Positions 4,032 through 6,494 of a stretch of 64,000 nucleotides of DNA are shown here, piece after piece. The translations under genes and the position numbers were made by a program. The notes under the pieces were generated by a model. The model did not search any database. It was not told the origin of the DNA and was given only the letters and a program-made list of their open reading frames with translations. This stretch comes from an uncultured Algibacter sp. (GTDB lineage: Bacteria > Bacteroidota > Bacteroidia > Flavobacteriales > Flavobacteriaceae): contig NZ_CANKXG010000005.1 in NCBI RefSeq assembly GCF_947487575.1, positions 62,001-126,000 of the forward strand, written 5' to 3'. The first letter of the stretch is position 1. Each line of letters begins with the position of its first letter.

Positions 4032-4322
4032 ATGAGTAATATTGAAGATATTGTAGATTCTTTAGAAAACAAGATTAGTAAAGTATTACACAAACTAGAG
4101 CTTTTGAAACTTGCTAATTTGAAATTAAATGAAGAATTAGAGATTTCAAAGCAAGAAAATTTAACCCAAAAAAAGCATATAGCTGATTGGGAAGAAAAAT
4201 ATGAAGCACTTAAAATTGCAAATACAATACTTGGTAGTGACGATAATAAAAGAGAAACTAAGCTTAAAATAAACGCATTAATCAGGGACATTGATCATTG
4301 TATTGCTCAACTCGCTGATTAA
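4032..4322 (+). CDS. Small coiled-coil protein upstream of zapA
   Basis: 96 aa, almost wholly predicted helix with a leucine-rich heptad pattern (residues 5-70) and no signal peptide. It ends 15 bp before zapA and so is probably in its operon. A small coiled-coil ORF at this place recurs in flavobacteria. By position it may be a division-associated partner of ZapA, but that is inference. The overlapping 164-aa minus ORF is its shadow. Confidence 0.75.
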   Translation: MSNIEDIVDSLENKISKVLHKLELLKLANLKLNEELEISKQENLTQKKHIADWEEKYEALKIANTILGSDDNKRETKLKINALIRDIDHCIAQLAD

Positions 4323-4337
4323 AGCTAATTAAACTCA

Positions 4338-4631
4338 ATGTCAGAAAAGCTTAAAATAAAGCTATCTATAGCTAATAGAGTATATCCTTTAACAATTGAG
4401 CCAAGTCAAGAAGAAGGATTACGTAAAGCGGCTAAAAACATTGAGGCTATGATAAAGCAATTTGAGCAAAGTTATTCTGTTCGAGATAAACAAGATGTTT
4501 TGGCAATGTGTGCCTTACAATTTGCATCTCAAGTAGAGCAGAAGTCTATTGATAAAACAAATGTAAATGAGCATGTAGAAGAAAAACTAAATGCTTTAAA
4601 TGATTTGTTACATGCTCATATAGTTTCTTAA
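4338..4631 (+). CDS. zapA: Cell division protein ZapA
   Basis: 97 aa. The N-terminal KLKIKLSIANRVYPLTIEPSQEE matches the ZapA beta-strand start, followed by EGLRKAAKNIEAMI and a C-terminal coiled coil, the usual size and layout. ZapA binds FtsZ and bundles its filaments at midcell. It follows the coiled-coil gene at 4032 and is followed by the 6S-like RNA and rny. A zapA-6S RNA neighbourhood is also known from proteobacteria. Confidence 0.9.
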   Translation: MSEKLKIKLSIANRVYPLTIEPSQEEGLRKAAKNIEAMIKQFEQSYSVRDKQDVLAMCALQFASQVEQKSIDKTNVNEHVEEKLNALNDLLHAHIVS

Positions 4632-4654
4632 CGTTCTTTAAAATAAACTAAAAG

Positions 4655-4845
4655 TTACTGCCTACATTGGTTATTTTTTTTGATAAACTCAACGTTAATT
4701 CTTTAAAAAGGGTGAGTTTAAGTTGTAAAAGCATGCTGCTAGTACTGAATTTATTTTCGGTATCTCGAGCAGACCCTTGATCAGCTTGTTAGCCCTAAAC
4801 TTGTTTTTAAGGAGTTTATACAAAACTTTATACCGGTGTAGGCTT
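4655..4845 (+). ncRNA. ssrS: Probable 6S RNA (flavobacterial type)
   Basis: The 290-bp gap between zapA and rny holds no ORF but folds well by eye. A closing stem pairs CCTACATTGG (4661-4670) with CCGGTGTAGG (4833-4842). The next stem pairs ATAAACTC (4683-4690) with GAGTTTAT (4812-4819) exactly. The terminal hairpin pairs CTGCT (4736-4740) with AGCAG (4768-4772) and TACTGAA (4743-4749) with TTCGGTA (4756-4762). A long rod with internal bubbles ending at a T-run (CTTTTTT, 4843-4849) downstream of zapA fits 6S RNA, which sequesters RNA polymerase holoenzyme. The class call is from shape and context, not from a covariance search. Confidence 0.75.
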
Positions 4846-4919
4846 TTTTATATACCAATTTGAATATGTTAGTTAGTATTTAAACTGGATTTTTACACAC
4901 AAATCAACTAAAACAAACG

Positions 4920-6494
4920 ATGGACAACTCAATTATATTTGCAGTAGGAGGTGTTGCGCTAGGAGTCATAATTGGCTTTATAATAGCAAAAACACTAGAG
5001 AAAAACAACGCTTCAAAACTTGTTAAAGAAGCTAAAAAGGATGCCGCTTTAATATTAAAAGAAGCAAAAAGCGAAGGAGAAACGCTTAAAAAAGATAAAA
5101 TCCTTCAGGCTAAAGAAAAGTTTATTGAACTAAAGTCGGAGCACGAAAAGGTTATTTTATCTCGTGATAAGAAAATGGCTGAGTCTGAAAAGCGTACGCG
5201 TGATAAAGAATCTCAGATCTCAAGTGAATTAGCTAAAGGTAAAAAACTAAATGAAAGTTTAGAAAGTAAATCTAAAAACTACGATCACAGGTTAGATGTT
5301 TTAGAAAAGAAGCAAGAAGAGGTTGATAAATTGCATAAAAGACAAGTACAACAACTAGAAGTTATTTCTAGTCTTTCGGCTGAAGAAGCTAAAGAGCAAC
5401 TAGTGGAGTCTTTAAAAGGAGAAGCAAAGAACGATGCTATGGCATACATTCAGAGTGCTTTAGAAGAGGCTAAATTAACTGCCGAACAAGATGCTAAAAA
5501 GATAATAATAAATACCATACAGCGTATTGGAACAGAGGAAGCAGTAGATAATTGTGTGTCTGTATTTAATATAGAGTCTGATGATGTTAAAGGACGTATT
5601 ATTGGTCGTGAAGGACGAAATATTAGAGCCATTGAAGCTGCAACAGGTGTTGAAATAATTGTTGATGATACACCAGAAGCGATTATATTATCATGTTTTG
5701 ATTCTGTGCGTAGAGAAGTAGCGCGTTTATCATTACATAAGTTGGTTACAGATGGTAGAATTCACCCTGCTAGAATTGAGGAAATCGTTAAGAAGACTCA
5801 GAAACAAATTGAACAAGAAATTATAGAAGTTGGTAAACGTACTGTTATTGATTTAGGAATTCATAATTTAAACCCTGAGTTAATTAAAATGGTAGGTAGA
5901 ATGAAATACCGTTCTTCTTATGGACAAAACTTATTACAACACTCAAGAGAGGTAGCAAAACTTTGTGGCGTTATGGCAGCAGAGTTAGGTTTAAACCCAA
6001 AACTGGCTAAAAGAGCAGGATTATTACATGATATCGGAAAAGTGCCAGATGCTGAAGCAGATATGGAAACACCACACGCCATTTTAGGTATGCAATGGGC
6101 AGAGAAGTTTGGTGAAAAGGCAGATGTTTGTAATGCTATTGGAGCGCACCATGATGAAGTAGAAATGAAATCATTATTGGCTCCTATTATTCAAGTATGT
6201 GATGCTATTTCTGGAGCAAGACCAGGTGCAAGACGTCAAGTTCTAGACAGTTACATACAACGTTTAAAAGACTTAGAAGATATTGCCTTTGGGTTTAATG
6301 GTGTTAAAAAAGCGTATGCTATCCAAGCAGGTAGAGAACTACGTGTTATTGTTGAAAGTGAAAAAGTAAATGATGATGTAGCAGCAGATTTATCATTTAG
6401 CATTTCTCAAAAAATACAAACGGATATGACTTATCCTGGGCAAGTTAAAGTAACTGTAATTAGAGAAACTAGAGCGGTTAATATTGCTAAGTAG
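4920..6494 (+). CDS. rny: Ribonuclease Y
   Basis: 524 aa. One N-terminal membrane helix (about residues 5-24) is followed by a long charged coiled coil (30-200), a KH domain with [15 protein letters not shown], and an HD domain with HDIGK. The length and order match RNase Y, the membrane-anchored endoribonuclease that starts mRNA decay. The start ATGGACAACTC places the membrane helix at the expected position. The gene stands alone behind the 6S-like RNA and ends before a good terminator at 6563. Confidence 0.96.

Follow-up and report, generated by a model that had tools for sequence, protein, structure and literature searches.

6S RNA is a small RNA that is thought to dampen RNA polymerase as growth slows. 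The canonical 6S/SsrS family (Rfam RF00013) is built of a closing stem, a central bubble and a terminal stem, an architecture that it has in common with the RNA described here, and in E. coli K-12 its gene, ssrS, begins 41 nt after zapA, which lies directly upstream just as it does at the present locus. The gene downstream of ssrS in E. coli is fau (ygfA) and not rny, and to our knowledge adjacency to zapA is not universal among 6S genes. The order zapBA-ssrS has been described for beta- and gamma-proteobacteria (PMC7641849). As to the Bacteroidota, the 6S-Flavo RNA (RF01685) was described by Weinberg et al. 2010 (PMC2864571), transcription of a 6S RNA has been observed in Flavobacterium psychrophilum (PMC9723704), and 6S together with two classes of pRNA has been reported in Bacteroides thetaiotaomicron (PMC7366714), whose 6S may or may not be the RF01693 RNA.

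The window, i.e. the whole stretch of 64,000 nt from an uncultured Algibacter sp. that was analysed, carries zapA at 4338-4631 on the + strand (Pfam PF05164 ZapA, 72.5 bits) and rny, the gene for RNase Y, at 4920-6494 on the same strand (Pfam RNase_Y_N at 121 bits, with KH_1 and HD), and the ORF list of the window holds no reading frame of at least 70 aa in the gap between them. Upstream of zapA lies a further small ORF, which has no Pfam match and is called zapB-like only on the basis of its position and size. The features of the locus are the following.

4032..4322, + strand: zapB-like small coiled-coil gene, an ORF that is kept as the upstream neighbour
4632..4640, + strand: conserved boxA-like element CGTTCTTTA directly after the zapA stop, a pattern in the family loci
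4657..4849, + strand: 6S RNA gene, full length, from RF01685, an extended covariance model and covariation, with its ends placed by conservation
4660..4671, + strand: closing stem P1, 5' arm GCCUACAUUGGU, beyond the limits of the Rfam model, from covariation
4683..4690, + strand: inner closing stem P2, 5' arm AUAAACUC, pairing with 4812-4819
4691..4708, + strand: central bubble, 5' strand, from the predicted structure
4709..4796, + strand: terminal stem with internal loops, from covarying helices 4-7
4742..4766, + strand: lineage-specific apical extension, like the dispersed repeat CTGAAYTTRTTTCRG, from genome copies and local alignments
4797..4811, + strand: central bubble, 3' strand, from a constrained fold
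4812..4819, + strand: inner closing stem P2, 3' arm GAGUUUAU, from the covariation analysis
4832..4843, + strand: closing stem P1, 3' arm ACCGGUGUAGGC, from covariation
4844..4849, + strand: run of six T after the closing stem, a T-run that the 58 listed family loci have

The initial annotation had placed a 6S-like RNA in this gap and had named covariance searches with the 6S and the flavobacterial 6S models as the way to check it. The second of these models succeeds: when the whole window is compared with Rfam, RF01685 matches at 4687-4817 with 100.8 bits against a curated cut-off (gathering score) of 85 bits, over the full length of the model (positions 1-108 of 108), and it is the sole non-tRNA Rfam match in the window, which places the copy within the 6S-Flavo family. 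The first does not recognise the window copy directly, as no RF00013 match is listed at the locus up to E = 10 or in the organism's own genome at E <= 0.001, and the copy does not reach the RF00013 gathering score of 46.4 bits. The genome holds a single copy of RF01685, as do 99 of 101 genomes drawn from the Flavobacteriaceae, and in an even draw over the phylum the family is nearly confined to the Flavobacteriaceae (32 of 248 genomes), with weak matches in two other families of the class. The zapA-rny gap is therefore occupied by an ordinary, well-conserved 6S RNA gene of an RNA family that was already known, and we consider it highly probable that this Flavobacteriaceae genome has here its only 6S RNA gene and that the product of the gene acts as an RNA polymerase decoy with pRNA release.

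The long imperfect hairpin noted at the outset in the ORF-free gap is borne out by the fold of 4655-4845, which reaches -61.1 kcal/mol (z = -6.6), where dinucleotide shuffles give -37.2 +/- 3.6 and not one of 200 is as good. Its exact outer stems are likewise found, as 12 bp between 4660-4671 and 4832-4843, G-U pairs included, followed by six T, and the end coordinates first given, 4655 and 4845, agree with the conserved ends to within a few bases. When 58 loci of the family are lined up, conservation extends well past the Rfam model on both flanks, the 5' flank reading ACTGCCTACATT(A/G)GT and the 3' flank its complement, followed by about six T. Neither the outer 12-bp closing stem nor the inner closing stem pairing nor the T-run is part of the RF01685 model with its 108 positions, and the comparison supplies full gene boundaries for 6S-Flavo: the closing stem and the six T extend the gene past the Rfam model and would give an RNA of about 190 nt, and the six-T run at 4844..4849 is the probable 3' end, formed by termination. 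A search for a simple intrinsic terminator found none, because the arms of the stem before the T-run come from opposite ends of the RNA.

This structure is strongly supported by covariation in two alignments. In the first (A1), which comprises 30 diverse relatives and was analysed by an RNAalifold consensus with an independent pair count, 96.8% of cells are paired, compensatory changes on both sides occur in 26 of the 40 pairs, and none of 500 shuffles is as high on any measure. The second (A4), with 27 Bacteroidia members, shows compensatory changes in 36 of 40 pairs, in an alignment that was fitted to the model and so is biased towards the structure. In both, covariation is far over shuffles and slid controls. 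The outer stem P1 has both-side changes in 9 of its 12 pairs in A1 and in all 12 in A4; the inner stem P2 is nearly invariant (AAACUC/GAGUUU), with 99.6% of its cells in A1 paired. The consensus fold and its covariation show the architecture of the 6S class, with closing stem, central bubble and terminal stem-loop.

The surroundings of the gene are as constant as its fold. The order zapB-like gene, zapA, 6S, rny, with all genes co-directional, holds in 60 of 60 fetched RF01685 loci (59 of them distinct), so that the 6S gene stands beside zapA in every one, as it also does in the E. coli zapA-ssrS pair. The RNA usually starts about 19-36 nt past the zapA stop (12-14 nt in two of the family loci), and the median distance from its end to the rny start is about 24 nt.

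The bridge to canonical 6S RNA is given by models built from this slot. With a model from Flavobacteriaceae and relatives (R1), the RNA is also recognised between zapA and rny in other Bacteroidia, and a covariance model was then constructed from 27 Bacteroidia zapA-rny slot RNAs only (R2). RF00013 itself has matches in 15 of 148 genomes drawn from the phylum (E 4e-8 to 1e-3), only one of which passes the curated cut-off; all 15 have a ZapA-like gene immediately before them and rny immediately after, Pfam ZapA being confirmed at each of the six loci tested. The FMO protein (PF02327) is present in 14 of the 15 genomes, which are therefore green sulfur bacteria, and their RF00013 6S genes have the same zapA-6S-rny order as the window. 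R2 recovers all 15 of these loci in the right place and on the right strand (E 5e-8 to 9e-3), ranking them above every other match, with further matches in Sphingobacterium, Pedobacter, Mucilaginibacter and Rikenellaceae. Among the loci tested, the family thereby reaches lineages, e.g. Sphingobacterium, Mucilaginibacter and Rikenellaceae, that have no 6S-type Rfam match above cut-off at the slot. Homology with accepted 6S RNAs is found in this way, via R2 and the RF00013 loci, and E. coli ssrS itself is not matched by R2; since RF00013 in turn matches neither the window nor its genome, the link to the founding member of the family runs by a chain.

The same model also finds the Bacteroidales-1 RNA (RF01693), in Bacteroides, Parabacteroides, Phocaeicola and a Prolixibacteraceae genome, with E values of 1e-12 to 7e-10 on four loci above the RF01693 cut-off, and in three genomes the RF01693 and RF01685 models match the same places. 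The RF01693 RNA of Bacteroides, Phocaeicola and Parabacteroides differs from the window RNA in its position, as it adjoins an infC-rplT-like cluster (the gene names being a reading of the translations) and not the zapA-rny slot; in these genera zapA and rny are still neighbours, about 100 nt apart. The 6S gene thus appears to have moved out of the slot in the Bacteroides group (L205-L208). From the R2 matches and the gene order it follows that RF01685, RF01693 and the green sulfur 6S look like one gene, which joins three Rfam families that have been listed apart (RF01685, RF01693 and RF00013).

A slot RNA (E 7e-7) with a Bacteroidia-type rny (60% identity) was also seen at L168, 2200-2416, in a record named 'Alphaproteobacteria bacterium isolate INTA.CYC.164'; the Alphaproteobacteria label of this metagenome assembly is probably wrong.

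The linkage to zapA had been left in the initial annotation as either ancient or convergent. That the zapA-6S-rny slot occurs in Bacteroidia as well as in green sulfur bacteria speaks for common descent within the phylum, where the linkage looks inherited, and for the zapA-ssrS pair of Proteobacteria the same origin is likely, although not proved: because R2 misses E. coli ssrS, the evidence for this last step is gene order and the 6S architecture that both have. A wider reading, which we hold to be evenly balanced between right and wrong, would make RF01685, RF01693 and the green sulfur RF00013 one orthologous gene with zapA-6S-rny as its ancestral site, the zapA-6S pair of Proteobacteria a remnant from before the split of the two phyla, and 6S expression coupled to zapA and RNase Y. 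If the order is indeed common with E. coli, 6S would have kept its place next to a gene of cell division over a very long period, and the reason is a testable question. The synteny and the bridge between Rfam families are the newer part of these results and are modestly new; the shared zapA-rny position may already have been noted in earlier work on the distribution of 6S.

Other explanations of the RNA have to be weighed against a 6S function. It could be a cis-acting 5' leader of rny, through which RNase Y or the ribosome sets rny expression, with the free RNA as a by-product. Such a leader would fit the position of the RNA, which in the family is always directly upstream of rny, and the spacing, as rny begins about 24 nt past the T-run in most members and transcription must therefore cross the RNA gene or start inside it. 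Yet in Bacteroides and relatives the homologues found by the same model lie away from rny, downstream of the infC-rplT-like cluster, with zapA and rny still adjacent there, which means that RF01693 and RF01685 RNAs travel without rny, and the RNA has the 6S architecture; a leader as the main function is accordingly unlikely, although the RNA could have a role in rny expression besides its 6S function.

Less probable still, and very unlikely in our view, is a structured small RNA with a function other than that of 6S, whose hairpin with bubble arose by convergence. What speaks for it is the missing direct RF00013 match and the fact that long hairpins match one another loosely, but R2 matches the RF00013 loci precisely in position and on a single strand, with no more than 10 bits for the other strand of these hairpins, and the gene slot is the same in both groups. 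As for a protein-coding gene or a chance palindrome, no supporting point was found; the fold z of -6.6 and the gap free of ORFs of at least 70 aa speak against it, and the covariation (26 of 40 pairs) already refutes it to the point where its probability is negligible.

With the 6S function preferred, a mechanism can be outlined for which the present analysis shows the sequence family, the structure with its conservation and the gene order, and in which polymerase binding, the growth-phase role and pRNA release are taken over by homology. A co-directional transcript that begins on the zapBA side or at a promoter not recognised in the sequence would yield the RNA of about 190 nt, whose ends pair in the 12-bp closing stem followed by U residues, and whose central bubble and long terminal stem would imitate an opened promoter. 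The RNA would bind the RNA polymerase holoenzyme with the main sigma factor and keep it off promoters as growth slows; once nutrients are back, the polymerase would transcribe a short pRNA from the bubble's 5' side, and this pRNA would open the inner closing stem and release the enzyme. The 5' strand at 4691..4708 is presumed to be the pRNA template side by analogy with E. coli 6S. In constrained folds, blocking 4682-4697 in the manner of a pRNA breaks up the inner closing stem, which costs the RNA by itself about 9 kcal/mol, and the outer stem persists.

With the 5' strand occupied, the bubble 3' strand and the P2 3' arm can form a small hairpin (AAACU/AGUUU), which many members are able to make; its mean is -3.0 kcal/mol, where shuffles give -1.7. 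As a conserved release switch this hairpin was rejected, since its advantage over shuffles is no more than modest and several members lack it.

The signals that drive expression were sought in the 60 nt before the RNA. The TAnnTTTG -7 box is not enriched there, occurring in 1 of 58 family loci against a shuffle mean of 2.2, by which a local sigma-A promoter of this type was rejected. In a scan for sigma-70-type promoters a single weak site turned up where 2.3 were expected. The only conserved element found in the 60 nt before the RNA is CGTTCTTTA, which 50 of 58 family loci carry 19-31 nt ahead of the RNA, most of the others having a near match. Of three genomes whose rRNA operons are complete, two have a similar GTTCTTTA 300 or 560 nt ahead of 16S rRNA; the third, with six rRNA operons, has no such element at a constant place, and in one genome (G014) the 6S copy reads CGTTCATTA and the rRNA copies GTTCTTTA. 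On this thin evidence the boxA reading of CGTTCTTTA was set aside and remains a lead, a boxA-type antitermination or processing signal for 6S being possible. Processing of 6S from the zapBA transcript is a fair guess. The gap of about 24 nt behind the RNA leaves little room for a promoter in most relatives, and as rny follows the RNA at so short a distance in them, it likely depends on transcription through the 6S gene; regulation of rny by this RNA is possible.

The segment UUUG(A/G)UAAACUC (window 4678-4690) is nearly invariant in the Bacteroidia members, and UUUG is absent from the two phylum-level RF00013 relatives that were printed (L061 and L064). This UUUG may imitate the TTTG that belongs to the -7 promoter box of Bacteroidetes.

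The apical loop of the window copy is longer than that of RF01685. It holds an extension that resembles the dispersed hairpin CTGAAYTTRTTTCRG, a pattern which has 37 near matches in the organism's own genome against 2 for the reversed pattern, and the long form of which has no match in the window. Exact copies of CTGAAYTTRTTTCRG stand in the same 6S loop of two further loci (L042 and L047), and a REP-like element may have been inserted into the 6S loop in some lineages.
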